20,128 nucleotides of DNA, taken from a virus. The DNA lies in IMG/VR virus record IMGVR_UViG_3300044948_001003, positions 1-20,128 of that record, one strand, 5' to 3'. Positions 664 to 20,128 of the stretch are shown in pieces. The notes under the pieces are model-generated. The model was not told where the DNA came from and did not search any database. It saw nothing but the letters and a program-made list of their open reading frames with translations. Position 1 is the first letter of the stretch. Each line of letters opens with the position of its first letter. The translations under genes were made by a program, and so were the position numbers.

Positions 664-675
664 AAGGTCCATCCC

Positions 676-1926: not shown

Positions 1927-1929
1927 CCC

Positions 1930-2316: not shown

Positions 2317-2318
2317 CC

Positions 2319-3600: not shown

Positions 3601-3636
3601 GTTTTTGATCCTCCACCCCCTTCAGAACTGAGTGCA

Positions 3637-3921: not shown

Positions 3922-3929
3922 AACTGACC

Positions 3930-4385: not shown

Positions 4386-4388
4386 GCC

Positions 4389-4622: not shown

Positions 4623-5374
4623 GTACCTATGCATCCTTCCAGGGTCGCGTCTATCTGGGCAAGCGTGACGTCGCCGGCAATCCGGTCGAAGTCCGTTCGC
4701 CCGGCAACGTGGCGGAATTGAAACTCGCCCTCAAGACCGAGGTGCTGGAGCACTACGAGTCGCAATCCGGCCAGCGCTCGCTCGATCACCGCATGGTGAA
4801 GTCCAAGTCAGCCAGCGTGAACCTCACCATCGAGGAATTCACCCCAGAAAATCTGGCTCTCGCCCTGTACGGCACTTCCGTCCTGGGCAGCAGCGGCACT
4901 GTCACCGACGAACCAGTGGGTGGCGCGGCACCAGTGATTGGCGACCGCTACTTCCTGGCCCACCCCAAGGTATCCACCCTGGTGGTGCAGGACAGCGCAG
5001 CCACGCCCGCGACCCTGACCCTGGGCACGCATTACACGGCGGATACCGATTTCGGTGCCGTCCAGTTTCTGGACATCACCGGCCTGACCGCTCCCTTCAA
5101 GGCCAGCTACGCCTTCGGGGTAGTGACCGAGATCGGCCTCTTCACGCAGCCTCTGCCGGAACGCTTCCTTCGTCTCGAAGGCGTGAACACGGCGGCGGGC
5201 AATGCCCGGGTGCTGGTCGAACTCTATCGAGTGGCGTTCGACCCGCTGAAAGAGTTGGCGTTGATCTCCAACGACTACAACAAGTTCGAACTGGAGGGCT
5301 CGCTGCTGGCGGATGCCTCGAAACCCTACGACGCGGTGCTTGGCCAGTTCGGCAAGATCGTTCAGATCGGGTGA
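4619..5374 (+). CDS. Major tail tube protein
   Basis: A 251-residue protein that should polymerise as stacked hexameric rings to form the tail tube. Visible features are the N-terminal ASFQGRVYLGKRDVAGNP strand pair, a central SQSGQRSLDHRMVKSKSASVNLTIEEFTPENLALALYG block, and a C-terminal LPERFLRLEGVNTA...VELYRVAFDPLKELALISNDYNKFELEGSLLAD stretch; the last pattern (beta strands around a conserved FELEG) is typical of siphovirus tube proteins. An inserted, probably Ig-like or loop domain lies at about residues 90-160. GAGGAGA is well placed before the ATG. It sits directly before the tail chaperone pair, the standard position. I am confident of the role, less so of the exact family. Confidence 0.82.
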   Translation: MSTYASFQGRVYLGKRDVAGNPVEVRSPGNVAELKLALKTEVLEHYESQSGQRSLDHRMVKSKSASVNLTIEEFTPENLALALYGTSVLGSSGTVTDEPVGGAAPVIGDRYFLAHPKVSTLVVQDSAATPATLTLGTHYTADTDFGAVQFLDITGLTAPFKASYAFGVVTEIGLFTQPLPERFLRLEGVNTAAGNARVLVELYRVAFDPLKELALISNDYNKFELEGSLLADASKPYDAVLGQFGKIVQIG

Positions 5375-5379
5375 CCACC

Positions 5380-5787
5380 ATGAGCCTGGAAACCTTTGTG
5401 CCCGAGCCGGTCATCGTCGAGATTGCCGGCGAGACGTTGGCGATCGCCCCCTTGAAGGTAGGCGAATTGCCGACCTTCATACGCGCCATCCGCCCCTTCG
5501 CCCAGCATCTGACCCAGGACGTGGACTGGCTCGTCCTGTTCGGTGAGCGCGGAGAGGATCTGGTTTCCGCGCTGGCGGTGGCCATCCGCAAGCCGCGCGA
5601 GTGGGTGGCGGCGCGGGAACTGGATGAGGCGATTCGTTTGAGCGAGGCGGTGTTCGAGGTCAATGCGGATTTTTTTATCCAGCGCCTGGCCCCGGTGCTG
5701 GCTCGGGTGGCGAGCCGGGTGGAGACGATTGGGGCGCGCTTCTCCAACGCCTCGTCAAACACGGGCACCACTACCCCGAAGTCCTGA
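5380..5787 (+). CDS. Tail assembly chaperone, short form (gpG-like)
   Basis: The zero-frame product is 135 residues from the ATG at 5380 (138 from the GTG at 5371, which overlaps the tail tube stop). I prefer 5380 because GGTG lies six bases upstream. It is the short chaperone that coats the tape measure protein before tube assembly. Residues 1-60 read as beta strand then helix (VEIAGETLAIAPLKVGELPTF), similar to the N-terminal part of chaperones in Mu-like and lambda-like phages. At codons 98-99 the ribosome meets T TTT TTT (5670-5676), and without slipping it ends in a Thr/Ser-rich tail (SNASSNTGTTTPKS). Position between tail tube and tape measure is the standard one for G/GT pairs. Confidence 0.8.
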   Translation: MSLETFVPEPVIVEIAGETLAIAPLKVGELPTFIRAIRPFAQHLTQDVDWLVLFGERGEDLVSALAVAIRKPREWVAARELDEAIRLSEAVFEVNADFFIQRLAPVLARVASRVETIGARFSNASSNTGTTTPKS

Positions 5788-5936
5788 ACTACACGGTGGC
5801 TCAGGTGCGCGCGTTCAGCGAAGCGATCGAACGCAGCGAAAGCCTGGCACTCGCCGCCCAGTTCGCACTGCTGGTAACTGCTGCGCGTGGCGGCAACAGC
5901 GAAATCAAATCCCTCCTGCGTGAACTCAAGCCATGA
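5380..5936 (+). CDS. Tail assembly chaperone, frameshifted long form (gpGT-like)
   Basis: A -1 shift at 5670-5676 joins 99 zero-frame codons (5380-5676) to 86 codons in the -1 frame (read from 5676, stop TGA at 5934-5936), giving 185 residues. Read in the new frame, the junction is a Gly/Pro-rich linker (YPAPGPGAGSGGEPGG), then a well-formed domain: WGALLQRLVKHGHHYPEVLNY, TVAQVRAFSEAIER, ALAAQFALLVTAARGG and a final LLRELKP. This second domain is coding-like, has no start of its own and would be lost without frameshifting. In lambda the T domain binds the tube protein while G binds the tape measure. The stop overlaps the next gene's ATG (ATGA). The fusion is inferred from sequence, by analogy with many phages. 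Confidence 0.8.
5670..5676 (+). other. Slippery heptamer for -1 programmed frameshifting
   Basis: Seven T residues lie in phase as T TTT TTT relative to the chaperone frame (codons GAT TTT TTT ATC), the canonical X XXY YYZ form. It is the only such heptamer in the overlap between the two frames and sits where the coding character passes from the zero frame to the -1 frame. Confidence 0.82.
5679..5701 (+). promoter_or_regulatory. Candidate frameshift-stimulating hairpin
   Basis: CCAGCGCC (5679-5686) can pair with GGTGCTGG (5694-5701): eight pairs including one G-U, with a seven-base loop. It begins only two bases after the slippery site, shorter than the usual five to nine, so the lower pairs may need to melt. 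A competing stem of similar strength, CTGGCTCG (5698-5705) with CGAGCCGG (5711-5718), lies just downstream. Confidence 0.45.
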
Positions 5937-6595
5937 AGTTGTCGCTGACCACCTCCGGCCTGCTCGACCCGAAGCGGCTCGATAGCTGGGTGCCGGAAAA
6001 GCGTCGAGCGATCCGCAAAGCCGTCGAGTCCGCCATGAAAACCACCGGCAAGGAAATGGCCGACGCCGCGCGCAGCCGAATGCAATCAGCGTTCAAGGTG
6101 AAGAGGGCAGGATTTTTGAAGTCGATGCGTGCGAAGGTCTATGCCGGCAGCCCGGAGCGGTTCCCGGCGCTCCTCATCGGCTCGAAGATTGCCTGGCTGG
6201 GTCTGCACATGAAGGGCGGCACCATCACCGGCAAGCGCGGCAAGCTGCTGATCCCGCTGTTGCCCGAGCACCAGCGAATCGGCCGCCGCGCCTTCAAGCG
6301 CGTCATCGACGGGCTGATGCGCGCCGGGAACGCCTTCTTCATCGAGCGCAACGGCAAGCTGATCTTGATGGCCGAGAACATCAAGGACAACACGGCCGAG
6401 TTACGCCGCTTCAAGCGCGCCGAACGCGATCGCACCGGTGCAAAAACCATCAAGCGAGGCCAGGAAATCCCGATTGCTGTGCTGCTGCCGAGCGTGACCC
6501 TGCGCGGTCGCTTCGATCTGCCCGGCATCGTGCGCGCGCAACTACCAAAGTTGGCAACGAACATCCTGCAACAACTGAACACTCATGGCCTCTGA
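5933..6595 (+). CDS. DUF6441-like phage tail-region protein
   Basis: A 220-residue basic protein between the chaperone pair and the tape measure. The N-terminus LSLTTSGLLD followed by a helical, charged region (AIRKAVESAMKTTGKEMADAARSRMQSAF, residues ~26-54) and repeated Lys/Arg clusters match the DUF6441-type proteins I recall from proteobacterial siphophages. Its function is unknown. The position suggests a tail completion or tape-measure-associated role. It starts at the ATGA overlap with the chaperone stop and its own end overlaps the tape measure start by 11 bases. No signal peptide or membrane segment is seen. Confidence 0.6.
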   Translation: MKLSLTTSGLLDPKRLDSWVPEKRRAIRKAVESAMKTTGKEMADAARSRMQSAFKVKRAGFLKSMRAKVYAGSPERFPALLIGSKIAWLGLHMKGGTITGKRGKLLIPLLPEHQRIGRRAFKRVIDGLMRAGNAFFIERNGKLILMAENIKDNTAELRRFKRAERDRTGAKTIKRGQEIPIAVLLPSVTLRGRFDLPGIVRAQLPKLATNILQQLNTHGL

Positions 6596-9545
6596 ACGCG
6601 CCCAGATCCTGATTGCTGCCATCGACCAGACCAAGCAGGCGTTCGCCTCGGTCAAGAGCGGCCTGGAGGGGATCACCACCGCAGCCAAATCAGTCAACGG
6701 CTTGCTGGCCGGGCTGGGCGCGGCGCTGTCGGTCGCGGGGTTGATGGCCGCTGGCAAGGCCGCGATCGATACCGCCGACGATCTCTCCAAACTGTCCCAG
6801 AAAACTGGCATCTCGGTCGAGTCGCTGTCACTCCTTAAGCCCATCGCCGAGCAATCCGGCATTTCGCTGGAAGGACTGGCCAAGGGCATGCAGAAGTTGG
6901 CGACCGCGATGGTCGAGGCGGCGGGTGGTTCCAAGGAGCAGCTTGAGGTCTTTAGTCGCCTCGGCGTTTCGGTCAAAGGTGCCGCCGGGCAGATTCGTCC
7001 GACCGAAGCGGTGCTGCTCGATCTGGCTGACGCCTTCTCCGTCATGCCCGATGGGGCCGAGAAATCCGCCTTGGCTGTGAAGCTCTTCGGCAAGGCAGGC
7101 GTCGAGCTGATTCCGTTTCTGAACCAGGGCCGTGCCGGCATCGAGGAACTGAAGCAGAAGTTCAAGGAACTGGGCCTGGAGATCAGCGGCGACACGGCTC
7201 GCGCTGCCGAGAAATTCAACGACACCCTCGATACGGTCAAGCAGGCGCTTTCCGGCATCGCCCTACGCGTGGCCGAAGCGGCACTCCCCGCCTTACAGCG
7301 CTTGGCCGACGCCCTGGTGGGTCTGGCCAGCCATGGCGACGAGATTCTGGCCGTGATGCGCGCCCTGGGCGAAGTTCTGGTGGCGGTGCTGGCGGTCAAG
7401 GGTGTCGCGGCGGCGGCCAAGCTGCTGGAATCGGTCAACTTGTTGAAGGCCGCATTCACCCGTTTCCTGCCCATCCTGGCGGCGGTGGCCGTCTGGGAGA
7501 TGGGCAAAGGACTCATCAAGACGGTGCAGGACATTCGCGAGACCAATCGCGCCATCGACGAACTGGGTCGGCAACGGGCGCAGATCGATCAACTCGACGC
7601 CGCGATGCAGGAACTAGCGGCGACCGGCACGGTGAGCATCAAAACCCAGATGGCATTGGCTGCCCTGGCGGCTGAGCGCTTGAAAGCGGCGCTGCCTGGC
7701 ACGGCCGACGCACTGCGCGCCATCCAGGGCGCGGCGACACAAGCTGGTGAAGCCATCCGCCAGGCGCTGGACGCGGAAACCAAGAAAGCCGCTGAATCGG
7801 TCAAGCAGCTTGCTGCCAGTTACAAGCAGGTCGCCGCCGATATCAAGGCAAACTGGGATGCGCGCGTGGCCGAGGTCGAAAGCAACTACAAGCGCCAGGA
7901 AGCAGCCGCGCAAACGGCGGCGCGTTCCGAGTCAGCCGCTATCCAGAGTTCAACACAGAACCTGCTCGCTGCCGAGCGCGATAAACTCGCGGCGGTCGAG
8001 GCCGGTGCGCACCAGATGGAAGCCGCCTGGAAAACCACCTATGGTCAGGCCGTCGCCCTAGCACGGGCCGCTGGCCAGGATGTGGCATCTATCGAACGCC
8101 AGGCGGTAGAGGCGCGCATCAGCCTCTATGGCCAACTGGAATCGGCCTACCGCGCCACCGTCGACCGGCTGATCGCTGAGGAGCAGCGGCATCTCAATGC
8201 CGCCAAGGCCGCCGAGGAGGCACGGCTCAACCTCAAGCTCTCGGTCGAGGACCGCATCCGCGAACTTGGTCGCAAGGGGATGGATGATTACGCGGCCTAC
8301 CAGGACCGGCTGCGCCAGATCGACGAGAAGCAGGCCCAAGCCAAGGCCGCGCTCGACGCCGGCAACTATGAGCAGGCGCGCAAACTTGCCGAGGAAGCCA
8401 TCGCCCTGGCCGAGCGTTCGGCCTCAGCGGTGACCCAACAAGTCGAGCAGAACGGCAAGACAGTCACCCAGACGATGGTGTCCGAGGGCCAGGCCGCCGC
8501 CACCGCCATCGGGCAGATCAAGGAATCCGCCGGCATCGCCGACTCGGCGTTGAAGGGGTTGGGCGATGCCCACAAACAAGCCGCATCAGCGGCAGGTGCC
8601 GGCGCGGATGAGGCCAAACGCGCGCTGGCCTCCGTCTCAGACGAACTCGGCAAACTGCGCCAGCAACTGCTGTTCCAGGACAAGCTGAAGCTCGAAGTCG
8701 ATATTGAAGGCGCACGGGCCGGTATCGAGAAGCTGCAGGCGCTGATGGCGGCGCAGCAGTTGATCACCAAGATTCAGGCCGACACGAAAGAAGCCGAGTC
8801 CGCTCTGGAAAAACTCAAAACCGACACGGGCAATCTCACCCTGGTCGCCAAGATCGAAGCCGACACCACGAAGGTGATGGCCGACATCGACACGTTGAAG
8901 GGCACGCTTTCGGCAGCCAAGGTGGAGATCCCGGCGCTGGTGTCCTTCGACCAGCCCCGGGCGCAACTGGCTTCGTTCGCTCAGGACGCCCGCACGGTGT
9001 TATCCAATCCGACGTCGGCGACGCACACGCCGCAGCCTGATCTCGGCCAGTACCGGGCGGCGGTGTCTGAACTCATGCGTCCCACTTCGAGCCGCCACAC
9101 TGTCTATGTGACGAGGGTGGCAACCAATGCCCAGGGCGGGCTGATTCAGCGGTTCGCCGAGGGTGGCCAGGCCATCGCCGAGGGATTCAAGCGGATGTCC
9201 GGCCGCATCTTCGGGCCGGGCACGGAAACCTCGGACTCGGTGCCAGCGCTGCTGTCGCATGGCGAGTTCGTGGTGCGCGCGGCCTCGGTGCGCAAGTTCG
9301 GCGAGGGCTTCTTCGCAGCGCTCAACGCCGGCTTTGTGCCTCAAATTCCTCGTTTTGCGGCGGGGGGTGCCGTGGCCAATGCTGTGGCGCAGGCGACGAT
9401 GGGCGGCGGTTCGTCCTCGACTCCCGCCCGCGATGTGGTCGACCTTCGCTTTCATGTCGGCGGCAAGCCGCACACCGTGCAATCCAGCCGCGACACCGCC
9501 ATGCAACTGGCCAGCGCGCTGCGTGAACTGTCGCGGGGATCGTGA
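6585..9545 (+). CDS. Tail tape measure protein
   Basis: A 986-residue protein that sets tail length and is ejected with the DNA. The N-terminal 30 residues are amphipathic, followed by hydrophobic stretches at about residues 38-60 and 230-290, as expected for a protein that enters the cell envelope. Residues ~310-850 are mostly long Ala/Glu/Lys/Gln-rich coiled coil with little proline or cysteine. The C-terminal part has the family's Gly-rich segment: AEGGQAIAEGF, then GRIFGPGTETSDSVPALLSHGEFVVRAASVRKFG and PRFAAGGAV. By the rule of about 0.15 nm per residue it would specify a tail near 150 nm (inference). The start overlaps the previous gene by 11 bases and the ribosome binding site is weak, so translation may be coupled. 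Confidence 0.95.
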   Translation: MASERAQILIAAIDQTKQAFASVKSGLEGITTAAKSVNGLLAGLGAALSVAGLMAAGKAAIDTADDLSKLSQKTGISVESLSLLKPIAEQSGISLEGLAKGMQKLATAMVEAAGGSKEQLEVFSRLGVSVKGAAGQIRPTEAVLLDLADAFSVMPDGAEKSALAVKLFGKAGVELIPFLNQGRAGIEELKQKFKELGLEISGDTARAAEKFNDTLDTVKQALSGIALRVAEAALPALQRLADALVGLASHGDEILAVMRALGEVLVAVLAVKGVAAAAKLLESVNLLKAAFTRFLPILAAVAVWEMGKGLIKTVQDIRETNRAIDELGRQRAQIDQLDAAMQELAATGTVSIKTQMALAALAAERLKAALPGTADALRAIQGAATQAGEAIRQALDAETKKAAESVKQLAASYKQVAADIKANWDARVAEVESNYKRQEAAAQTAARSESAAIQSSTQNLLAAERDKLAAVEAGAHQMEAAWKTTYGQAVALARAAGQDVASIERQAVEARISLYGQLESAYRATVDRLIAEEQRHLNAAKAAEEARLNLKLSVEDRIRELGRKGMDDYAAYQDRLRQIDEKQAQAKAALDAGNYEQARKLAEEAIALAERSASAVTQQVEQNGKTVTQTMVSEGQAAATAIGQIKESAGIADSALKGLGDAHKQAASAAGAGADEAKRALASVSDELGKLRQQLLFQDKLKLEVDIEGARAGIEKLQALMAAQQLITKIQADTKEAESALEKLKTDTGNLTLVAKIEADTTKVMADIDTLKGTLSAAKVEIPALVSFDQPRAQLASFAQDARTVLSNPTSATHTPQPDLGQYRAAVSELMRPTSSRHTVYVTRVATNAQGGLIQRFAEGGQAIAEGFKRMSGRIFGPGTETSDSVPALLSHGEFVVRAASVRKFGEGFFAALNAGFVPQIPRFAAGGAVANAVAQATMGGGSSSTPARDVVDLRFHVGGKPHTVQSSRDTAMQLASALRELSRGS

Positions 9546-11368
9546 TGGACGCCAGCGTGCGCATTCCCCTGAAAGCCTGTGTCCGGCGCGAACCCCATCC
9601 GCAAACGTGTACGCCGCACGGATTCGAGTGGATTCCGGGGTACCTGAACCAGTACGGCGGCGAGATGACCGACTACGCGCGCAACTGGTTCATCGACAAA
9701 TGGGATGAGCCCTACCAGGCAGCGCTGGAGTCGGCCGAGCAGGAATACCAGGATTGTCTGCAAGGTGGTGTGACCGAAAGCCAAACGCCAAGCGGCCTGC
9801 AACTGCGAGTAGTTACGTTGAATGCCTCGAAACTCGACGCGCGGACAACACTCAGCGAAAGCCAGCCTACCGTCGCGTTGTCGACCCAGGTGAACGTGCA
9901 TTTCAGCCCGACAGTCGGAACGCCGCCGCCGTGCGACCCGTTCGATCCGAACTTCGACCCTGACCAACCCAGCTATCCCGTCGATCCGAATACACCGCCG
10001 GTCAGTGTGCCGCGCTCGCTCTTCTGGAAAGGGAGCAGCGCCACCTACGACCTGGAGGCGATTGAGCGGGCGATGCAGCCGGTGAACAGCCTGCTGAGTC
10101 CGGCCAATCCGTTGTCGCTGCGGGATCTGCGTCTTGATGCCAATAGCGTTATGGCTGCGGTGCGCATCACGAGCCACAATTTCCTGCCGATCCCAGCCAA
10201 TGTTGATGTCTACGACGATCTTCAAACTGAGTTGGAAGTGGCGTCTATCCGTCTGGATTTCTCCGCCGAGTGGGCCAACACCGGCGGGGTCCTGGATACC
10301 TGGTCGGCCACCAGTCTGAGTGTTAACAACAAAGACGCCTACACCGACTTCTATTGCTATTACCTGGGCGTCTGTTCGCATTGGGCAAACCCGCCCCCCG
10401 TGTTCAACTGGAACCTCGTGCCGCCAGGGTGCATCGATGATGTCCTCATCCGGGCGCTGCCCAACGCGATCACCCTGGTGCGCATCCGAGCCGGCAGTGG
10501 CGAGACACTGGATACGATCACCCTTTCGATAAACCACGTTGGTACGATCGACTCGCGCCCCATCGTCGCCCGGCACCGAATCTTTAATAGCACTTCTATT
10601 CCGCCGGGTTGGCCTCTGGTCCATGCCGTGTTGCCCCAGGTCGATGTCGGGCCGGCAGCGCTGGGGGTGACGCAGGAAGTGGTCGTGGTCCTGCCCGAAT
10701 GTCTGGTCGGCAAGGTGGAACTCGCTGCGGACGCCGTCCAGGACTTCAACCTGTTTCAGTCGGACGGCGTCATCGGCATCACGGTTCTGGCAGGGGCGAC
10801 GCCGGAGACGATCAAGCTGCGGCTCACCCTGGAGCGCCACGTTTACCACTGGGACCGGGATGTGGATATTCGCTTTATTCCGATGGGTGGCGTCGACGTG
10901 GGCTACCCGCCGCAGGGCTGGTTTCCGCATGTCATCTTGCGCGTGCCTGTGTCCTGGAATGGCTGCGATGCGTTTAACCCGGCCACCGACAGCCAGGCCC
11001 GGGTAGCCATCGTCGGATGGGCAGCCACTGACATGTTCACCGTGTCGCCCCGCTGGCTGCATACGCTGACATTCCGCATCCTGGACTATGCCGCGCCTTG
11101 CGATGCGTTTGATTGCGTCTGGGGCTACGTGCGTGTGACCTGGCCGAACGGCACGGTGCAGACCCAACAAATCATGTGCGTCACCGGGGATATCGATTTG
11201 CCACGCATTTTCACGCTGCGGATGGCCGGCAATGCGCCGCCAACCGTGAACGTCGAACTCACCCTCTACTACGAGGCCAACAACCGGCGTCGCCAAGCGG
11301 ATGGTACCGACTTCGACTACCTCCCCGTGCCCGGCCCGATGCACCGCATCCAGACTCTGTCGCCATGA
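9545..11368 (+). CDS. Unrecognised 607-residue tail-tip protein with probable repeated beta domains
   Basis: I do not recognise this protein. It follows the tape measure directly, sharing the A of TGATG, the place usually held by distal tail or tail-tip genes. Residues 1-75 carry four Tyr/Trp-rich short segments. Residues ~123-155 form an Asp-Pro-rich linker (DPFDPNFDPDQ). From ~200 onward it is beta-rich. A motif recurs at residues 313-329, 413-429 and 557-574: a strand, Ala-Gly, then Thr-Ile/Val and alternating Leu/Val. PPGW or PPQGW occurs at 353 and 455, suggesting an internal duplication of about 100 residues. There are twelve cysteines, many for a phage structural protein. A distal tail or side-fibre-anchoring role is an inference from position. 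Confidence 0.75.
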   Translation: MDASVRIPLKACVRREPHPQTCTPHGFEWIPGYLNQYGGEMTDYARNWFIDKWDEPYQAALESAEQEYQDCLQGGVTESQTPSGLQLRVVTLNASKLDARTTLSESQPTVALSTQVNVHFSPTVGTPPPCDPFDPNFDPDQPSYPVDPNTPPVSVPRSLFWKGSSATYDLEAIERAMQPVNSLLSPANPLSLRDLRLDANSVMAAVRITSHNFLPIPANVDVYDDLQTELEVASIRLDFSAEWANTGGVLDTWSATSLSVNNKDAYTDFYCYYLGVCSHWANPPPVFNWNLVPPGCIDDVLIRALPNAITLVRIRAGSGETLDTITLSINHVGTIDSRPIVARHRIFNSTSIPPGWPLVHAVLPQVDVGPAALGVTQEVVVVLPECLVGKVELAADAVQDFNLFQSDGVIGITVLAGATPETIKLRLTLERHVYHWDRDVDIRFIPMGGVDVGYPPQGWFPHVILRVPVSWNGCDAFNPATDSQARVAIVGWAATDMFTVSPRWLHTLTFRILDYAAPCDAFDCVWGYVRVTWPNGTVQTQQIMCVTGDIDLPRIFTLRMAGNAPPTVNVELTLYYEANNRRRQADGTDFDYLPVPGPMHRIQTLSP

Positions 11369-11745
11369 TCCGACTCGATACCGTGGCACTACCCGATGGC
11401 TTGGTGTGGAGTGATGAATTTGCCGCCCAAACCGTGGCGCAGAGCGTGCGCCGTACCCTGGATGGTTCAGTAGTGGTGTTCTACGGCCAGCACAGCGGCG
11501 GCCTGACCATCACCCTGGAATCCGAACCGGACGCCGGCTGGCTCACGCGCACCCAGGTGGAGGCGCTGAAGCTGCGAGCCGACAGCCCGGGCGGCATCTT
11601 CACCCTGGAACTGCGCGGCCAGGTCTTCCAGGTGATGTTCCGCCACCAGGAGCCACCCGCCTTCGAGGCGAAGCCCTTGTTCAACCTGGCCCACCCCCAG
11701 CCCGGCGATTTTTATCTTGCCACCCTGAAACTCATGACCGTGTAG
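11365..11745 (+). CDS. Conserved small tail-tip protein
   Basis: A 126-residue protein starting at an ATGA overlap with the previous stop. The start IRLDTVALPDGLVWSDEF, the middle ESEPDAGWLTRTQVEAL and the end VMFRHQEPPAFEAKPL follow a pattern that I recall from many proteobacterial siphophages, where such proteins lie just before a large hub-like protein and have no assigned function. Tail-tip or hub association is inferred from that association and from its position here. It is beta-rich, soluble and has no cysteine. The longer open frame upstream runs through the preceding gene and is not used. Confidence 0.75.
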   Translation: MIRLDTVALPDGLVWSDEFAAQTVAQSVRRTLDGSVVVFYGQHSGGLTITLESEPDAGWLTRTQVEALKLRADSPGGIFTLELRGQVFQVMFRHQEPPAFEAKPLFNLAHPQPGDFYLATLKLMTV

Positions 11746-11753
11746 GAGTCACC

Positions 11754-12761
11754 ATGCCCATCCTCGACAACGAAATCCTCTGGCGGCCCGCCGCCTTGCT
11801 GTCCGACGCCACACCCGCGCAGAACGGTGGCCGCATGGCCTTCCCCCAACTGGTCTCCGGCGTGAAGAACAATCTCTTCCCGGACGTCTCGCAATCCGAA
11901 CGCGGCGCGGGTTCGGTGAAGTGGCGCAAGGCCTTCATCCACATCAACAGCGCCCAGGATGCGGCGTTGCTGAATGTGCGGCTGTTCATCGATGCCCCCA
12001 CGCCTGCAGGCGACTTCGTGGTGTTCCAACTCGGTACGGCGACCGACACCCAGGACCAGATCGCGGGCCGCACCTATGGCATCGGCACCCTGTTCGCAAC
12101 AGTGGCTGGCGGCGCGAGTCAGATCCAGGTGGTGTGCGAGCACAACGCCGAATACGCCACCCTGCAGCCATTCCGGGTCGGCGACCTCGTCCGGGTGTCC
12201 GACCGCCCGAGTACCGGCGGCACGGGCAATGAAGAATGGATGACCCTGTCCGGCGTCAACTACGAACCGGACTTCGCTACCCTGGATTTCACATCGGCGC
12301 TGGTGAATGGCTACGCCACGGCGAATACCCTGGTGAGCACGGTTTATCAGCAGGCCAGTGTTGCTGGCGCCTGGTCGAATCTGGCGCTCACCAGTGCCGC
12401 CGGCAGTTTCGATGCGGCTACGGTCGGCAACCTCATCGCGCACAACAAAGGCGCCATCGAGCAGACCTGGAGCCTGACCTTCACCGGGCAGGGCTTCAAC
12501 GTTTCGGGTAACACGATAGGCACATTGCCCGCGATGGGTTCCACCAGCGCCGACTTCGCGCCGGTGAACCCGGCCACCGGCACGCCGTATTTCACGATCA
12601 AGGCGGCGGGATGGAGCGGCACCTTCCAGGCCAACGAGAGCCTGCATTTCGACACGCATCCAGCGGCGATTGCCATCTGGTATCGCCGCCAGGTTCCCGC
12701 CGGCACCTTCAGCCTCGCCAACGACTTCGCGTCACTGGCGATTCACGGCGAGAGTGCGTGA
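11754..12761 (+). CDS. Unrecognised 335-residue tail protein
   Basis: A structural-looking protein of unknown function. It begins with PILDNEILWRPAALLSD and contains NNLFPDVSQSERGAGSVKWRKAFIHINS (about residues 39-66), followed by Thr/Ala/Gly-rich beta segments and few charged residues, as in phage tail or fibre proteins. The last third (FTGQGFNVSGNTIGTLP, ATGTPYFTIKAAGWSGTF) looks like a beta-sandwich. GGAG is well placed before the ATG. Its end overlaps the next gene by one base (TGATG). Homologues are usually annotated as hypothetical phage proteins; no enzyme motif is visible. Confidence 0.75.
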   Translation: MPILDNEILWRPAALLSDATPAQNGGRMAFPQLVSGVKNNLFPDVSQSERGAGSVKWRKAFIHINSAQDAALLNVRLFIDAPTPAGDFVVFQLGTATDTQDQIAGRTYGIGTLFATVAGGASQIQVVCEHNAEYATLQPFRVGDLVRVSDRPSTGGTGNEEWMTLSGVNYEPDFATLDFTSALVNGYATANTLVSTVYQQASVAGAWSNLALTSAAGSFDAATVGNLIAHNKGAIEQTWSLTFTGQGFNVSGNTIGTLPAMGSTSADFAPVNPATGTPYFTIKAAGWSGTFQANESLHFDTHPAAIAIWYRRQVPAGTFSLANDFASLAIHGESA

Positions 12762-13588
12762 TGGCCACGGTGGGTTTCACCAAGGAATACTCCGCTGGCG
12801 ACTTCGACTCGGTGGCACTGACCGCCATGTTTGCCACGCTCAAGGGATTTTTTGAAGCGGCGGGGTTCGTCGTTATCCTCGATCAGGCCGACGCTTTTGA
12901 GGTGCTCCCCGCCGGCCACGCGGCCGGCACGATCAGTGATGACATCCCGCACTGGCGCATCGAGCAAGGCGGCGGCAGCTACCCCAACCTTCGTGCTCGC
13001 GCCATCTGGGGCATTAATGACGACGATATCGATAGTCGCTCTTCACACACCGTGTATTTGCTCAATGCCGATACTGATCCGCAGTGGGCCTCCTACCGGG
13101 CCATAACCTTCGCCGCTGACGGCAGCGCAGGCTGGTGGTGGCTGATCTCAAAACAATGGGACGCCGCGCACCCTGAATGGGGAAACTGGTTCGAGGCGAG
13201 CGCAGTGGCCTCGAAGACGCGTCGCTACGCTGCCGACTTTCATGTCGGACTGGTCTGTCGCTACGGCATTTATGACGGTGGAGATTGGCGCACGCCCTAC
13301 GCCATCGCTGCAACAGGCACGATCAATACCAAAGTAGTCGGCACACTCTGGTCACCGCTTGCGGGTATGCAGCGGCATGCTGCATCGCCCTTGCCGCGGC
13401 TGGTCGCCCCACTTTTTTGCGAAATCAACAACTCGCCGGGCGCACACCTGCAAGGCGAGATCGAACACATCATGAAGCTGACCAGCGGTTATGCCTGGGG
13501 AGAAGCGCCGCTGCCGGGATGGTGGGCATTCACCAATGACTACGCGCCGCTTGCTTTGCCCGCACCGACCAGCTTCACGGCACTCTAA
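12761..13588 (+). CDS. Unrecognised 275-residue tail protein
   Basis: A protein of unknown function, aromatic-rich (many Trp and Tyr), beginning MATVGFTKEYSAGDFDSVALTAMFATLKGFFEAAG-like (helix after a short strand). The middle contains YLLNADTDPQWASYR and GWWWLISKQWDAAHPEWGNWFE, unusual for their tryptophan density. Such surfaces are common in receptor- or glycan-binding tail proteins, but this is only a suggestion. The ATG at 12761 shares a base with the previous stop, and its own TAA overlaps the next ATG (TAATG). The longer frame upstream lies inside the previous gene and is not used. Confidence 0.72.
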   Translation: MATVGFTKEYSAGDFDSVALTAMFATLKGFFEAAGFVVILDQADAFEVLPAGHAAGTISDDIPHWRIEQGGGSYPNLRARAIWGINDDDIDSRSSHTVYLLNADTDPQWASYRAITFAADGSAGWWWLISKQWDAAHPEWGNWFEASAVASKTRRYAADFHVGLVCRYGIYDGGDWRTPYAIAATGTINTKVVGTLWSPLAGMQRHAASPLPRLVAPLFCEINNSPGAHLQGEIEHIMKLTSGYAWGEAPLPGWWAFTNDYAPLALPAPTSFTAL

Positions 13589-15408
13589 TGTTCGACACCG
13601 GCCTGACGCTGCACCTGAGTATTCATGCTGACGCGGCTCCGGCGAAGGTGCGTACTCGGTTCTCTGCCGCCTGGGGCACGACCGAGGTTTTTACATCCAA
13701 TGTAACAACGTGGGATATCACCCAGATCAAGGCGTGGCGGAATGTGTCGGGGTGGTCGCTGCGCTTTGCCGGCACGCACCGGACCCGCTATGGCTTGCGC
13801 CTGGAAAAAGGGAACCGCGCACCTTATGGCGACCTGCGCCAGCATCTGCGGCACCTGGTCATACCCTATGGCGATACCCGCCAACACCGGTTACGAGTGA
13901 CGCTACTTTACGGAGATGTGCAGTGGCTACGGACCCGAATTGATCTGCCCTACGGCGAGGCAAGACGTCATCATGCCCGAGTCACGCTGCCCTACGGCGA
14001 AGTGAGCCGACTTCAGGCCCAAGTCATCCTGCCCTACGGCGAGGTGAGCCGACTTCAGGCCCAAGTCACGCTGCCCTATGGCGAGGTGAGTCGGCTTCAG
14101 GCACGAGTCACGCTGCCATACGGCGAGGTAAGTCTGCTTCAGGCCCAAGTCACTCTGCCATACGGCGAAGTGACCCGGCTCCGGCAGCGGCACATCGTTC
14201 TGTATTCCGAGCTCGGCGTTTGCCAAAAAAGCATGCGCCTCACTTACTGGCTGACCCAGGAAGTCGCTACGCACCACGTCCTTGGTTACGCCGTGACGAA
14301 GGTAAATCCGCTCAAAAAGCAGCTCACCGCATCCTGGTCGTTGCTTGCTGATCAGCATCTACAAGCGGTGATGAACACGCCAGAACTGGTCTGGCAGGAC
14401 AAGACGATCCGCATTCTCCAGGCCACCCTGAGTTGCGATGAGGGCAGTCCGGTATGGATCGCGACCGTCGAGATCGCGCAGGTTGCGGACTTCGCTGCCA
14501 TCGCCATCGGCGACCCGATCACCCTGGTCCTTGGCCAGGAAACCTTCGCGCTGGTGGTGGACGGCAAGACTCTATCGCGAGAATCCATGACCAGCCAGCG
14601 TTGCGAACTGACCGCCATCTCGCCGCTGGCGCTGCTGGACGCCCCCTTCGCGGCGACTACCCGGTATTACCAGCCAGGAGCAGTGCCGGCACGCACGGCG
14701 GTAGAAGAACTGATCGGCAACGTGGACTGGCAATTGCCGGACTGGACCATCCCCGCCGGTCGCTTGCTGATGGAAGGCGTGACACCGCTCGCGGCGGCCC
14801 GCAGCGTGGTCGCCGCCATCGGCGGGATCATCGAGAGCAATCCGGATGGCACAGTGGTTTGCCGCCGCCGGCATCCGGTGAGCATCCCCGACTATGGACA
14901 AGCTCCAGTCGCCCATAACCTGTTCGACGCCGATGTCCTGGCCAGTCGCGCCCAGATTGCGCCGGCGCGTGGCTTCAACCGGGTCACTCTGGCCAACGAG
15001 GACGTGGCGAGCGGGCGTTCCGCCGATCGCATCGAGCATGTCGCCGATGCCAACGACGCCAATCAGGGCACGGTGCGGGCCTACCTGGCGATAGCGCGAC
15101 CGGTACTGCTCACCCACACCGGCAATCCGGCAACGGTCATTGCTGCGCTGGGCGAGGTAGCGCGCAGCGAATCCGAGGTTGTCGAGTTCATCGAAGGTCG
15201 GGCGAGCACGCGCTACCCGGTCACCGCCATCAATAGTGCTACCTGGCAGCACACCGATCTCGGGGCCGTGACGGTGGACGGCTTGGCACTGGTTGCGGCG
15301 GTACCCGGCTACAGCCTGCTCGCTCTGACCTACACCTCCATTTCCCTCGACTGGCGCGTCACCTTGGCCGCAGACGAGGAAGTCCAATTCATCTTGGTTG
15401 ACGCTTGA
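13588..15408 (+). CDS. Tail hub-like protein with 14-residue tyrosine repeats
   Basis: A 606-residue protein. Residues 1-78 are a beta-rich N-terminal part. Residues 79-246 are twelve 14-residue units of the form PYGEVSRLQAQVTL, the tyrosines falling exactly every 14 residues from 80 to 234. Residues ~235-606 resemble hub-like proteins of proteobacterial siphophages: IGDPITLVLGQETFALVVDG, then SQRCELTAISPLALLDAPF, a DWTIPAGRLLMEGVTPLAAARSVVAAIGGIIESNPDGTV block near 405-445, and PARGFNRVTLANED. The C-terminal resemblance is to sequences I recall, not a named domain I can prove. It likely sits at the tail tip, and the repeat may form an extended beta structure. The next gene has AAGGAG overlapping this stop. 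Confidence 0.72.
   Translation: MFDTGLTLHLSIHADAAPAKVRTRFSAAWGTTEVFTSNVTTWDITQIKAWRNVSGWSLRFAGTHRTRYGLRLEKGNRAPYGDLRQHLRHLVIPYGDTRQHRLRVTLLYGDVQWLRTRIDLPYGEARRHHARVTLPYGEVSRLQAQVILPYGEVSRLQAQVTLPYGEVSRLQARVTLPYGEVSLLQAQVTLPYGEVTRLRQRHIVLYSELGVCQKSMRLTYWLTQEVATHHVLGYAVTKVNPLKKQLTASWSLLADQHLQAVMNTPELVWQDKTIRILQATLSCDEGSPVWIATVEIAQVADFAAIAIGDPITLVLGQETFALVVDGKTLSRESMTSQRCELTAISPLALLDAPFAATTRYYQPGAVPARTAVEELIGNVDWQLPDWTIPAGRLLMEGVTPLAAARSVVAAIGGIIESNPDGTVVCRRRHPVSIPDYGQAPVAHNLFDADVLASRAQIAPARGFNRVTLANEDVASGRSADRIEHVADANDANQGTVRAYLAIARPVLLTHTGNPATVIAALGEVARSESEVVEFIEGRASTRYPVTAINSATWQHTDLGAVTVDGLALVAAVPGYSLLALTYTSISLDWRVTLAADEEVQFILVDA
13822..14325 (+). repeat. Twelve tandem 42-base coding units (14 residues each)
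   Basis: Units start at 13822 and recur every 42 bases without a change of phase. Units at 13990, 14032, 14074 and 14116 are nearly identical; the first two differ at 3 of 42 positions. The outer units are diverged, keeping mainly the Tyr and the alternating hydrophobic pattern. There are no spacers, so this is a coding tandem repeat and not a CRISPR array. Confidence 0.93.
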
Positions 15409-15419
15409 AGGAGTGATTC

Positions 15420-15932
15420 ATGGCCAACGCCACCATCCGAGTGCAATTCGGCAGTCCTGATAGTCAGGGCGGCGCGTACGAGGGGCATCTTTCTGCAGAA
15501 ATTGACAGTCGTTCCAATGGCCTCAACGGTGGCAAGTCGTCGTTCAGCCCGGGCGAGACGGTCTACATCCTCGTCTACAAATCGGACAACGTCAGCATCA
15601 CCGAGACGATCTGCTCGGCAGGTTCACTCTCCGCCCAGGGCACTGCGACCGTGACGGTCACCGACGAACTGATGTTCGAGGAAGCCGATAACGCCAGTCT
15701 CAGTGTGCCAGCCCGGGCGGGAATCGACACATCGGTCTGGTATGGCCGCAGCCTGGGCACTCTCACGCTCCAGTCCGACAAGGTAACGGTGAAATCCGCC
15801 GTCAAGGGCGTGGGCGTGGCCAAGGTCACCTATGAGGCCCAGGCCCAGGTTTACGCCCTGGCTTCTCCCGCCGCACTCAACGGGGAAACCGACTTCTCCA
15901 TCCTCGCCCTGATCAAGGGGAGCGCGACATGA
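15420..15932 (+). CDS. Unrecognised 170-residue beta-rich tail protein
   Basis: A small protein with an all-beta look: ATIRVQFGSPDSQGGAYEGHL, then TVYILVYKSDNVSITET, GTATVTVTDELMF and VAKVTYEAQAQVYAL, all alternating strands separated by Gly/Ser/Asn turns. This resembles Ig-like or jelly-roll domains of tail-tip proteins, without a match I can name. AAGGAG at 15408-15413, six bases before the ATG, is one of the strongest ribosome binding sites in the window and suggests a high copy number or independent translation. The stop overlaps the next ATG (ATGA). Confidence 0.75.
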   Translation: MANATIRVQFGSPDSQGGAYEGHLSAEIDSRSNGLNGGKSSFSPGETVYILVYKSDNVSITETICSAGSLSAQGTATVTVTDELMFEEADNASLSVPARAGIDTSVWYGRSLGTLTLQSDKVTVKSAVKGVGVAKVTYEAQAQVYALASPAALNGETDFSILALIKGSAT

Positions 15933-16225
15933 TCGTCGAGGTCTATCGCGAGGACGGTCTGCGCGAGGGCACGCCCATCGTCGAGCCGCTGCTGTCGGAC
16001 GAGGCCTTGCTGAAACGGGGCGTGGCCGAGATGGATGCCCATGCGCATGCGTTCAACCAGGTGGAGTTGGAAGTGGTGTTCCAGCCCGGCTTCCGACTCG
16101 GACAGATCGTCGAGGCCACTGACCCGTCCACCGCCAGCGCCTATCGGGCCAAGGTTACCGGCATCCAGATCACGGTGACTGAGGCAGCCATCGAGATGCG
16201 CCTCAACCTGGAACAGTCGCGATGA
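15929..16225 (+). CDS. Small hub-accessory-like tail protein
   Basis: A 98-residue protein. It contains a helix (SDEALLKRGVAEMDAHAHAFNQ) and then strands: VELEVVFQPGFRLGQIVEATDP and YRAKVTGIQITVTEAAIEMRLNLE. The order 'helix with Arg-Gly, then beta barrel with R-L-G-Q-I-V, then Y-x-x-x-V-T-G' resembles the last domain of large hub proteins, here as a separate gene, so it could be a split-off hub domain (inference). It overlaps both neighbours by ATGA. Confidence 0.65.
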   Translation: MIVEVYREDGLREGTPIVEPLLSDEALLKRGVAEMDAHAHAFNQVELEVVFQPGFRLGQIVEATDPSTASAYRAKVTGIQITVTEAAIEMRLNLEQSR

Positions 16226-16440
16226 CCTTCCCGCTGCAGGAACTCACCCGCCTCATCGCCCCTGACGCCACCCTGGTCGGTGCGGTCGTCGGATTCAACG
16301 GCTCCCTGGTGCGCGTGGCCACCGAACGTGGTGCGGTGACGGCGCGCTCCCTCGATGTTCTGGCCATCGGCGACCGGGTGCTGGTCCGCCACGGCATGGC
16401 CACCCGAGCGCCAGTGGCCCGACACATTTATCCCGTCTGA
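16222..16440 (+). CDS. Small beta-barrel tail protein
   Basis: A 72-residue protein with an N-terminal helix (TFPLQELTRLIA) followed by a compact five-strand pattern (TLVGAVVGFNGSLVRVATERGAVTARSL then IGDRVLVRHGMATR), typical of an OB-like or SH3-like barrel. The function is unknown; the position at the end of the tail-tip genes and the overlap with the previous stop (ATGA) suggest a hub or spike accessory. It is the last gene before the hairpin at 16465-16485. Confidence 0.62.
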   Translation: MTFPLQELTRLIAPDATLVGAVVGFNGSLVRVATERGAVTARSLDVLAIGDRVLVRHGMATRAPVARHIYPV

Positions 16441-16464
16441 AGCACGTTTTACGCACAACCCTGG

Positions 16465-16487
16465 AACCCGCCCTCGTGGCGGGTTTC
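16465..16487 (+). terminator. Intrinsic terminator-like hairpin between tail and lysis genes
   Basis: AACCCGCC (16465-16472) pairs perfectly with GGCGGGTT (16478-16485) around a five-base loop, followed only by TC and a broken T-rich stretch. The stem is strong but the T tract is poor, so it may be a partial terminator or attenuator, or an RNA-stabilising stem that lets the late transcript continue. Confidence 0.5.
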
Positions 16488-16508
16488 GCATTTATGGAGA
16501 GCAGAAAC

Positions 16509-16802
16509 ATGACTGAACCACTGATCGAGCGTCGCAAGTCGGTGACGCTGCCCCAGGAAGAACTGGAACGCATTCTGGAATGCGCCGCCGCCAAGGGGGC
16601 CAAGACAGCACTGCATGGCGTCGGCCTGGACGGTGAGGACGCCGCCCACGACATCCGCGAACTGCGCAACCTGCTCGATGCATTCAATGAGGCCAAGCGC
16701 ACCGCCGGCATCACCGTCGTGAAAATGCTGGTCACCGGTCTGGTCCTGGCCGTCGTCGCGGGCACCGTCCTGAAACTGAAAATCTTCGGGAGCGCGCCAT
16801 GA
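16509..16802 (+). CDS. DUF6127-like one-helix membrane protein of the lysis region
   Basis: A 97-residue protein with an acidic, helical N-terminal half (SVTLPQEELERILECAAAKGAKTALHGVGLDGEDAAHDIRELRNLLDAFNEAKR) and one membrane segment (TVVKMLVTGLVLAVVAGTVL, near residues 70-90). The layout matches DUF6127-type phage proteins as I recall them, which have no proven function. Its place just before a holin candidate and lysozyme suggests a lysis role, possibly as an antiholin or pinholin partner. I chose the ATG at 16509 because GGAGAG lies eight bases upstream; a longer start at 16494 is possible. It overlaps the next gene by ATGA. Confidence 0.68.
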   Translation: MTEPLIERRKSVTLPQEELERILECAAAKGAKTALHGVGLDGEDAAHDIRELRNLLDAFNEAKRTAGITVVKMLVTGLVLAVVAGTVLKLKIFGSAP

Positions 16803-17272
16803 TCGAGACCTTGCTGGGTGGATTGTTGGGCGGGGCGTTTCGTCTGGCGCCTGAATTTCTGAAATGGCTCGATCGGAAAGGTGAGCGAGGCCACGAACTG
16901 GCGATGCAGGACAAGGCGCTGGAGTTCGAGAAGATTCGGGGCGCGCAGCGTATGTCCGAGATCGGCGCGAGTGCCGAAGCGGCCTGGAACACCGGAGCCA
17001 TCGAGGCGTTGCGCGATGCCGTGCGCACTCAGGGTGAGAAAACCGGGGTGGCTTGGGCGGATGCGATCTCGTCGAGCGTGCGGCCGGTGATTACCTACTG
17101 GTTCATGGCGCTGTACTGCGCGGCCAAGACGGCGGCCTTCGTGGCGGCTCTCAACGGCGGGGCATTGTGGAGCGTGGCGGTCGTTCATGCCTGGACGGAT
17201 GCCGACCAGGCGTTATGGGCCGGGGTGCTGAACTTCTGGTTCCTCGGCCGCGTATTTGATCGGATGCGGTGA
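16799..17272 (+). CDS. Putative holin, GTA 3TM type
   Basis: A 157-residue protein. Hydrophobic segments are a short N-terminal one (TLLGGLLGGAFRL), a strong one at about residues 100-122 (VRPVITYWFMALYCAAKTAAFVAAL), and a third near 135-153 (WAGVLNFWFLGRVF). A charged Glu/Lys-rich region separates the first two. The VRP...YW followed by W...FW...R pattern is what I recall of the GTA_holin_3TM family. Such holins permeabilise the inner membrane to release the lysozyme. The lysozyme start shares a base with its stop (TGATG), which supports a coupled lysis cassette. The number of true membrane segments is uncertain. Confidence 0.68.
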   Translation: MIETLLGGLLGGAFRLAPEFLKWLDRKGERGHELAMQDKALEFEKIRGAQRMSEIGASAEAAWNTGAIEALRDAVRTQGEKTGVAWADAISSSVRPVITYWFMALYCAAKTAAFVAALNGGALWSVAVVHAWTDADQALWAGVLNFWFLGRVFDRMR

Positions 17273-17730
17273 TGCAGGTACCCCAGGCGGCCATCGATCT
17301 GGCCAAGCGGTTCGAGGGCTTCCATCGCGTGCCGAAGCACGATCCGTATCGAGCCTATCCATACATCTGCCCGGCCGGGTACTGGACGATCGGGTTTGGG
17401 CATCTGTGCCAACCCGTCCACTCGCCCATTACCGAGGAGGAGGGAGAATCGTATCTGGCACAGGATTTGATGACAGCGCTCAAGGCAACGCTGCGCTACT
17501 GCCCGGTGCTGGCGACGGAGTCAGAGGAACGTCTCGCGGCCATTGTGGATTTCACGTTCAATCTGGGTGCGGGGCGGCTACAGTCGTCAACCTTGCGGCG
17601 GCGAATCAATCAACGCGACTGGTCATCGGCGGGGACAGAGCTTGGGCGATGGGTGCGTGGCGGCGGGCGGGTGCTGCCAGGTCTTGTTATGCGTCGTCAG
17701 GCTGAAGTCGCCATGCTTGTCGGGTTATAA
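17272..17730 (+). CDS. Endolysin: phage lysozyme, GH24 family
   Basis: A 152-residue muramidase that cleaves N-acetylmuramic acid-(beta-1,4)-N-acetylglucosamine bonds of peptidoglycan. The catalytic pattern is visible: Glu15 in RFEGFH, Cys33 in YICPAG and Thr39 in YWTIGFGH. In T4 lysozyme the three are Glu, Asp, Thr; Cys at the middle position is common in GH24 endolysins and remains active, so this should be a working enzyme. The C-terminal half, with VDFTFNLGAGRLQSSTLRRRIN and LPGLVMRRQAE, also matches the family. There is no signal or SAR segment, so export should depend on the upstream holin candidate. The ATG at 17272 shares a base with the previous stop; a GTG one codon earlier is the alternative. 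Confidence 0.9.
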   Translation: MQVPQAAIDLAKRFEGFHRVPKHDPYRAYPYICPAGYWTIGFGHLCQPVHSPITEEEGESYLAQDLMTALKATLRYCPVLATESEERLAAIVDFTFNLGAGRLQSSTLRRRINQRDWSSAGTELGRWVRGGGRVLPGLVMRRQAEVAMLVGL

Positions 17731-17920
17731 GTTTGGCCATGAAGTTTTATCTAAGTTGCCTCTGTATTTTCTACCATTACATCACCCAGGCTTGCGAACG
17801 TTGACAACAGCATGGCATTGAAGCACTGATGCTGCTTGATCAAGGATATACGGATAACGCGAGGATCTATGAAAGTATGAACGCAGGCTACTGCCAGCAA
17901 TAGGGGAAGAAAATAAACGC
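17731..17920. other. AT-richer gap between convergent lysozyme and DUF2357-like genes
   Basis: This 190-base stretch contains no gene that I can support. The first 120-odd bases are about 43-45% GC (counted by eye), clearly below the phage genes. It holds a perfect ten-base palindrome (CTTGATCAAG, 17835-17844) but no convincing terminator. A short open stretch in one plus frame (from about 17816 to a TAG at 17903) reads like a degraded coding fragment, but I cannot name it. The site may be the phage or prophage boundary, or the edge of inserted cargo. Confidence 0.5.
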
Positions 17921-20128
17921 CTAAATGACGTTACGCCCATGGCCGCAAGACGGGCACACAAATGCTATTGTGCTGTTGTCCGCTTTATATGGCACTGCGA
18001 GCACATCGGCTCCAAGAAATCGGTCTAACCATCCCGCTGAGGAGTCATCTGTTGCCCAAGAACTCACCAAGGGCATCAGGATAGGAATCCAATCTTTGCA
18101 GTTCGGGCATATCTCTGTCCCCCACTTCGTCGAGCAGTCCGGACACACACAGGAAAACCGATGCCCATTACTACCTGTGAAATCTCGTCTCGTATCGGCA
18201 ATACTTCCGCAAGTTGGGCAAGCGAGCAAGGACTTCACGAGTCCGATCGCGGCTTCCACCTTACTCGCGAAATTGGCGAGGGCATCAATCTGTGATCGAA
18301 GGTCAGTTATCGATGCGTTCAACACCTTCTTTCGAGCGTTAAGCGGTCCGCTAGCACCGCCATCTCGTACCGCCAGTCGTAACTGCTGGGATACGTCATC
18401 ATGCTCGATCTCCAGGGCTTGAAGTTGCTTCCGTTGATTGGCAAGCCGTTCTGCAAGATGAATATCCTCATAGATTTCAGGCGCACGCGTAACGACTATG
18501 CCGGAGCCAGTTGCTTCAAGCCACGCTACATCGTTCGAGATACTGGGTATTGGGGGGCTGGCTATAAAAGGCGGATAAGCAAGGAACATTGGCGCCGTGA
18601 TCGCCCATCGAAGTTCTCGTGTGACGCGCTCGACGCTGGATAAGTCCCATGGGGAAACTGGCAAGAATCCCGCACGTGGCTGTCCCACCTCAGCCATCTC
18701 GTGCGAAAGTGAATTTAGCCGATGTGCGTTGACGGGGAGCATGCGTTGAAAGGTACTTTCAGAAGAAGGGCTCGGATAGAGAACCAACGCAATCTCGTCT
18801 GCGGTTACGGACGCGTCGGCATCGCGAATTAAATTTGCCAGATCATCGTCACCGAACATCGCAACAGACCCTGGGATAGGAATGATCTTCAATAGCTTCG
18901 CCCCTTCAACCGCAAGGCGCAGCGTGCCGTCGGTCGATGACCAGGAGAGTCGAATGCGTATGCCCCGCCCTTGAAGGTCGATCTCATGTCTATCGAGAGC
19001 GTGCGTCAGGTCTGCAGGTTCGATACCTAGTTGGTGCAGCCCCCTGATGACAAGCAGGAGAGAAAAACCTCCGAAGCAGCGGCATAACTCTTGCATCTCT
19101 TCGAAATACTTGTCTGGTCTTGGTGACTGCTTCAAACCAAGACGCGCCCAAGCTAACCAGACTTCCGCTACTCTGCGGTAATGAACATCGTTCGCGAGAA
19201 TATTCGTCATCGTGAGTGTGGTGCTCACGGATGCACGCTGCGGAACCTCACGATACAGCACGGAATCCATCAGACCCGAGATTGAGAATTTCAGGAACTT
19301 CAGTTGCTTGAGAGTACGCTCAGCTTTGCGGCGAGCCTCTCCAGCATCAAGCGAATCCCCCAAAAGCTGGAATAGCCGCCGTTGCCGCCAGTGGGATCCT
19401 TGGCCAGCGGCTTCACTGAGTTTCTCGGCATCTTTGAAAAAGCCCAGCAACTTGGAGACCTCTCTCACCCGCTCAGAGAGGTACTGTTCCAGATGATCTA
19501 CGAGACGGACAGCAATCCGGTTCTCGTAGATATCGAACTGTTCCTCTCGAACCTGCGAGAGGATGCGTTTAGGAATAACGGCACGCAGAGTTGGGCGATC
19601 CCAATCCTCAGTATGCGCTGCGAGATAGCTGGATGCCTGCGTTGCTAGCCGCCGCGCCCTCGCCACCGTGGTTCGCTCGACTTCCACCCTCAGGTGGGTC
19701 CGAGGTCGCAGACAGACTTCGACGAGATGGCCGAGTCGGTCCGCGAGCAACTTCTCGAGTTCCTGCAATTCTGCCCGTTCAGACATTCCCGGAACGAGAG
19801 GGGACACATCAAGTGCATCCAGCCAAGTTCCACCGGTAGAGAGCAGTTCACTAACGCTGTTTCCGACATCCAGAATGCTCGTCACATCCAGTCTGTCCAG
19901 AACCTGAGCCCGCGAAATCGTTCCTTCAACTCTATCTCGCCCCGGTTCCATCAACTGCCAGTGTCCACGGAGATCAGGTACGCAATAACTAGGCTGCGCT
20001 ATCGCAATGGAGTTCAAGAACGTGGCGTCATCGCCCAGCGGCTCGACCATAAATCTGCCGAGGACCATATCTTCCGCTGGCACATCACAGGAATGCCCAC
20101 GTAATCTATCGATGAACCGATACGTCAT
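17921..20128 (-). CDS. DUF2357-like protein with coiled coil and C-terminal zinc ribbons (possible defence component; 5' end at window edge)
   Basis: A 735-residue reading frame whose first ATG falls on the last bases of the window, so it may start further upstream. Residues ~120-330 resemble DUF2357, a domain associated with McrBC-like type IV restriction: RPRTHLRVEVERTTV, a basic helical region, then EEQFDIYENRIAVRLVDHLEQYL with the family's ENR, and VHYRRVAEVWLAW. Residues ~555-630 are a coiled coil. The C-terminus has four CxxC pairs (Cys637/640, 662/665, 674/677, 725/728), enough for two zinc sites. No PD-(D/E)XK or other nuclease motif is visible, so any catalytic partner is probably a neighbour outside the window. 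The gene is convergent with the lysozyme and has lower GC than the phage genes. The family call and defence role are inference. Confidence 0.68.
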   Translation of the reverse strand: MTYRFIDRLRGHSCDVPAEDMVLGRFMVEPLGDDATFLNSIAIAQPSYCVPDLRGHWQLMEPGRDRVEGTISRAQVLDRLDVTSILDVGNSVSELLSTGGTWLDALDVSPLVPGMSERAELQELEKLLADRLGHLVEVCLRPRTHLRVEVERTTVARARRLATQASSYLAAHTEDWDRPTLRAVIPKRILSQVREEQFDIYENRIAVRLVDHLEQYLSERVREVSKLLGFFKDAEKLSEAAGQGSHWRQRRLFQLLGDSLDAGEARRKAERTLKQLKFLKFSISGLMDSVLYREVPQRASVSTTLTMTNILANDVHYRRVAEVWLAWARLGLKQSPRPDKYFEEMQELCRCFGGFSLLLVIRGLHQLGIEPADLTHALDRHEIDLQGRGIRIRLSWSSTDGTLRLAVEGAKLLKIIPIPGSVAMFGDDDLANLIRDADASVTADEIALVLYPSPSSESTFQRMLPVNAHRLNSLSHEMAEVGQPRAGFLPVSPWDLSSVERVTRELRWAITAPMFLAYPPFIASPPIPSISNDVAWLEATGSGIVVTRAPEIYEDIHLAERLANQRKQLQALEIEHDDVSQQLRLAVRDGGASGPLNARKKVLNASITDLRSQIDALANFASKVEAAIGLVKSLLACPTCGSIADTRRDFTGSNGHRFSCVCPDCSTKWGTEICPNCKDWIPILMPLVSSWATDDSSAGWLDRFLGADVLAVPYKADNSTIAFVCPSCGHGRNVI

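Follow-up and report, generated by a model that had tools for sequence, protein, structure and literature searches.

Type II CoCoNuTs were published by Bell et al. (2024, eLife; PMC11090510) and are defined there by a CnuB protein with NxD in place of NxxD and a long N-terminal coiled coil, together with a UPF1-like SF1 helicase (CnuH) and the TerY-P triad in the operon. According to the same source, CnuC of this type has an Ig-like beta-sandwich at the N-terminus and, at the C-terminus, a zinc ribbon in which CPxC occurs two or three times, and every Type II CnuC keeps the PD-(D/E)xK domain with its catalytic motif missing; the coiled coils of CnuC are described as insertions in DUF2357, and an Hsp70-like domain on CnuC would mean Type III-A. 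CnuE contains one HEPN domain with RxxxxH "in most cases", exceptions being acknowledged. Nucleic-acid binding was proposed for the CnuC zinc ribbons, and the HEPN domain was put forward as the principal effector of the Type II systems. No experimental test of any CoCoNuT was found in the literature that we searched.

We analysed a virus record of 20,128 bases (the window), in which a phage late region is followed by a single minus-strand gene at 17921-20128(-). With a probability of about 0.92, this gene encodes the CnuC subunit of a Type II CoCoNuT, an anti-phage system resembling Type IV restriction, whose partner genes were inferred from relatives, since the window stops at the cnuC start codon. 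The Type II assignment was made because the conserved operon order, the UPF1-like helicase and the NxD-type CnuB with a coiled coil match the published definition; gene context in relatives is the decisive evidence for the identity of CnuC, the DUF2357 match being weak. The first-pass annotation had presented the gene as the best candidate for an undescribed system, a claim that falls, as the system is already known and published. It had also proposed that the protein is one part of a McrBC-like or coiled-coil nuclease system, that it has no nuclease of its own, and that it is carried by or beside the prophage; these points agree with the operon found in relatives, the lack of a catalytic set and the phage late region with a convergent lysozyme. 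A target-sensing module, its suggestion for the zinc ribbons, would be in line with the nucleic-acid binding proposed in PMC11090510.

Domains of the McrC-like protein

The DUF2357 family of Pfam (PF09823) matched residues 135-223 of the 735-aa protein with an E-value of 1.7e-4 and 21.3 bits, just under the cut-off of 23.3 bits, and homologues of CnuC carry the DUF2357 annotation. This core (19460-19726(-)), delimited by the Pfam match and by invariant alignment columns, includes a conserved Y-E-N, which reads YENR in most homologues. Residues 1-110 (19799-20128(-)) would correspond to the Ig-like beta-sandwich of CnuC proteins, by analogy with PMC11090510, and the confidence of the AlphaFold2 model is about 23-31 in this region. 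Residues 366-516 (18581-19033(-)) are where the inactivated PD-(D/E)xK fold is expected, and the strand/helix order there was read from the same low-confidence model. The model of CnuC is poor (mean pLDDT 43.5), so that both the Ig-like and the inactivated nuclease folds stay predictions. No conserved D/E plus K catalytic set was present at 366-516 across nine homologues, the only invariant residues there being L413, P417, P493 and E500. Judged from these residues, the McrC-type nuclease of CnuC is expected to be dead.

These results bear directly on the possibility of a canonical subunit of the McrC type, with DNA cut by a PD-(D/E)xK nuclease of its own. McrC itself begins with a DUF2357 domain, and the order of strands and helices that the weak model gives for 366-516 could suit a PD-(D/E)xK fold; however, the missing D/E plus K set, the absence of the catalytic motif from all Type II CnuC proteins (PMC11090510) and the lack of any Pfam match to PF10117 (McrBC) make such a subunit very improbable, and it was rejected on the missing nuclease residues. 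As in E. coli McrBC, the McrC-like DUF2357 domain should activate an McrB-like AAA+ GTPase, which relatives encode directly upstream, whereas the CnuC protein differs by its missing catalytic PD-(D/E)xK residues and its additional coiled coil and zinc ribbons, and the CnuB partner by NxD instead of NxxD.

The coiled coil and the four CxxC pairs reported by the first-pass annotation were recovered as well. A COILS-type scan, in which the scoring table was approximate, detected a coiled coil at residues 554-590, and the model, low in overall confidence, places at 553-635 a helical hairpin that scores best of all its parts (pLDDT about 75-85 at 560-610); the scan and the model together delimit a coiled-coil helical hairpin at residues 554-635 (18224-18469(-)). 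Motif reading and alignment place the zinc-ribbon tail at residues 637-728 (17945-18220(-)), with four CPxC pairs at 637, 662, 674 and 725. Like published Type II CnuC proteins, the window CnuC lacks nuclease catalytic residues, has a zinc ribbon and has no Hsp70 domain (no Hsp70 match in Pfam). Unlike them, it has four CPxC pairs rather than three or two, and its coiled coil was detected between the nuclease-like region and the zinc ribbons. No PADLOC or NCBIfam model matched the protein, and comparison with PDB sequences gave weak, non-significant matches only.

Operon context in relatives

Two full-length homologues, L002 and L003, from an Accumulibacter sp. and an unclassified Pseudomonadota MAG, share 79% identity with the window CnuC, and plasmid relatives share about 30%. 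Reading of the ORFs in L002 and L003 gave the order TerY-like VWA, PP2C phosphatase, Ser/Thr kinase, helicase (CnuH), a protein of about 520 aa (the effector CnuE), a coiled-coil AAA+ protein (CnuB) and, last, cnuC. Annotated plasmids of Deinococcus, Pseudanabaena, Polaromonas, Rhodoferax and Nostoc show this order too, although some of these stretches omit the first genes, and it recurs in further genomes of the family. The McrB-like AAA+ GTPase looked for upstream was found directly upstream of cnuC in relatives, while the window record itself ends at the cnuC start.

Pfam assigned the L003 genes to VWA (5.8e-8), PP2C_2 (1.4e-27), Pkinase (1.1e-9), an AAA_11/AAA_12 helicase and AAA_5. The operon helicase, CnuH of the relatives, matched UPF1 structures (E 3e-18). 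CnuB of the relatives has the Walker A motif G-x-SGTGKT and the Walker B motif LDEMN, and the NxD motif, as TAN-x-DE, was present in all seven relatives examined; a COILS-type scan with an approximate scoring table showed a long N-terminal coiled coil in CnuB of L002 and L003, and comparison of CnuB with PDB sequences gave no match. The relatives resemble published Type II CoCoNuTs in operon order, TerY-P triad, UPF1-like CnuH, CnuE and NxD-type CnuB with an N-terminal coiled coil. The VWA, PP2C and kinase genes stand at the head of the operon as in TerY-P triads; in the CoCoNuT operon, however, the triad is an attached regulatory module and not the system itself. Likewise, CnuH of L003 (L003:2666-5998) scored an E-value of 2.5e-88 on the PADLOC model of MkoA and is a related defence helicase, but the MkoB/Mokosh layout is absent and kinase and helicase are separate genes in the CoCoNuT operon.

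This context also bears on whether the gene could belong to the structural or lysis set of the phage, its product having only a likeness to DUF2357 proteins. It stands next to a lysis gene, and the contig was classified as viral; yet its product has no PHROG match, it lies on the strand opposite to the lysis genes, and its homologues sit within a defence operon on host chromosomes and plasmids. Moreover, scans of viral contigs returned no close relative, and only one partial relative in 2.9 million contigs. A phage protein of this kind is thus extremely unlikely, and was rejected on the operon context of the homologues.

In the CnuC tree, the window gene groups with L002 and L003, and L004 (Deinococcus) is sister to them. 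Members of this clade, to which L005, L006 and L009 belong as well, carry four to six CxxC motifs in the tail, against one or two in L007, L008 and L136-L140. A sigma-54 activator lies directly ahead of the operon in L002, and genes that appeared BREX-like by eye, unscored, lie upstream in G002; PMC11090510 places BREX within the same superoperons as CoCoNuTs. A further CoCoNuT, of the L008 type, was observed in G042 (L134:14276-19014), about 13-17 kb past the lysozyme of a related prophage and after other defence-type genes. It is preceded by a sigma-54 activator and lacks the CnuE/CnuB start as well as the greater part of CnuH, maybe through deletion or an assembly fault.

Prophage setting and defence genes past the lysozyme

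The late region of the window encodes a head maturation protease, a major head protein, a tape measure protein, tail proteins and lysis genes. The last recognisable phage gene encodes a lysozyme/endolysin (17269-17730(+)) and follows a conserved lysis-region gene of phrog_6637 (16799-17272(+)), a family without an assigned function. Further upstream, a tail-region protein (13588-15408) contains a 42-bp tandem repeat of 5.5 copies (13945-14177) with a 14-aa unit like LPYGEVSRLQAQVT. In the closest related phages, a nucleoside 2-deoxyribosyltransferase gene lies directly 3' of the lysozyme. The 190-bp gap between lysozyme and cnuC contains a remnant resembling such a gene (17736-17911(+); local alignment score 68 versus a maximum of 55 in 500 shuffles), which is suggestive of a decayed copy. 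The lysozyme is the last gene in common with related prophages, and homology to L002 and L003 starts within the final cnuC codons.

The cnuC gene is convergent to the lysozyme and lower in GC, as described at first pass (54.3% versus 63.2% in window positions 1-17730); the two homologues have 63%. Its frame of 735 codons is intact, with an ATG start exactly at the window end. This start lines up with residue 1 of L002 and L003, indicating that the gene is complete despite touching the end, and the first bases after the ATG match the cnuB/cnuC overlap context of both homologues. Taken together, start position and overlap context indicate a complete cnuC in a record that was probably trimmed at a predicted gene boundary. 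The dN/dS against the two close homologues is about 0.15 over the whole gene and lower at the ends, so that the frame is under purifying selection and is more than a chance ORF.

We weighed whether the gene might instead be an orphan CnuC/McrC-like remnant beside the prophage, having no partners and belonging to a system that no longer works. Such a remnant would suit the single gene visible in the window, the decayed, low-GC DNA of the adjoining gap, the third-position GC of cnuC (0.55 versus 0.73-0.74 in the homologues) and the probably broken CoCoNuT of G042. Against it stand the intact frame with low dN/dS throughout and the matching overlap context, and the coincidence of window end and start codon looks like record trimming rather than loss of neighbours. 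We therefore regard a remnant as unlikely, and the gene as cnuC of a Type II CoCoNuT.

Its position directly beside a prophage lysozyme differs from published Type II CoCoNuTs, and we surveyed 39 non-redundant lysozyme loci in which 1.5 kb or more follows the gene, using mechanically picked ORF sets. The 89 ORFs past the lysozyme matched 298 PADLOC families at an E-value of 1e-10, which is not a count of systems because PADLOC has many redundant models of helicases, whereas 77 upstream-side ORFs of the same phages matched none. The past-lysozyme genes, scanned singly, include BrxL, PglZ, GmrSD, HsdR, SIR2/STALD, C5 methylases, PLD-SNF2 and SNF2 helicases and McrBC, and defence genes recur directly past the lysozyme across a broad prophage family (L018-L105). 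A serine recombinase (PF07508) was present in 11 of 27 records of these prophages, and a tyrosine integrase in none of the 27. In four loci (L035:10843-12464, which was analysed, and L039, L052 and L079, by reading), a convergent pair past the lysozyme was also seen, comprising a DUF5131 (phage Gp37/Gp68-like) gene and a gene for a protein of about 275 aa that had no Pfam match.

Acidithiobacillus phage AcaML1 has a lysis region with 78.5% DNA identity to that of the window and carries Dcm, McrB and McrC directly 3' of the lysozyme. Unlike the window, it encodes Dcm and a canonical McrBC on the plus strand and no CoCoNuT, and its tail genes differ and include a tail sheath. The defence genes of this circular phage are inside the phage genome, because the lysozyme and the recombinase end flank them and attachment repeats are listed for the element in the published paper. 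The defence stretch extends for 20 kb or more in G150 and G273, where it may enter a separate island; for G273 (L153), this is because a second recombinase-like gene with two RepB-like genes, as read by eye, ends the McrBC/BREX-type stretch about 20 kb past the lysozyme, which would suit a mobile island. A direct-repeat search for attachment sites in two host-borne relatives and one ending at a contig edge gave only chance-length repeats. The CoCoNuT of the window is either phage cargo or part of a flanking island.

CnuE and the proposed mechanism

CnuE of the closest relatives differs from the published Type II form, as the arginine of the predicted HEPN motif RxxxxH is replaced by A in L002 and L003 and by C in L004, and is retained in the other eight relatives. 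This is no strict break of Type II membership, because the source admits exceptions. Since the CnuC tree places the window gene with L002 and L003, and L004 as sister, the unseen CnuE of the window system may share the loss.

By analogy with McrC and McrB, the DUF2357 domain of CnuC would contact and activate the GTPase ring of CnuB. From McrBC and PMC11090510, the dead nuclease-like domain and the zinc ribbons of CnuC would bind nucleic acid, while the coiled coils would hold the complex together and the VWA/phosphatase/kinase triad would switch it. RNA damage would come from CnuH or CnuE and not from CnuC. With the HEPN arginine missing from CnuE of the closest relatives, it is uncertain which part does the cutting in the clade of the window, L002, L003 and L004; of those that remain, an RNase-toxin-like domain of CnuH is the likeliest. 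More doubtful is a wider proposal, that this clade has lost both nucleases (the PD-(D/E)xK of CnuC and the HEPN arginine of CnuE) and so must use another effector, and that the window copy travels with the prophage as cargo, in a defence locus next to the lysozyme that is common to a broad serine-recombinase prophage family.

Beyond the published description, the analysis adds the CnuE arginine loss in the closest relatives and the defence-rich stretch past the lysozyme. If the arginine loss is functional, the published idea of HEPN as the main effector would fail, testably, for the clade of the window, L002, L003 and L004. A CoCoNuT, predicted to target RNA, is now tied to prophages of a family in which defence genes (restriction, BREX, DISARM-like, SIR2 and McrBC) repeatedly occupy the stretch at the lysozyme, and we suggest the lysozyme end of these prophages as a practical site to search for more.
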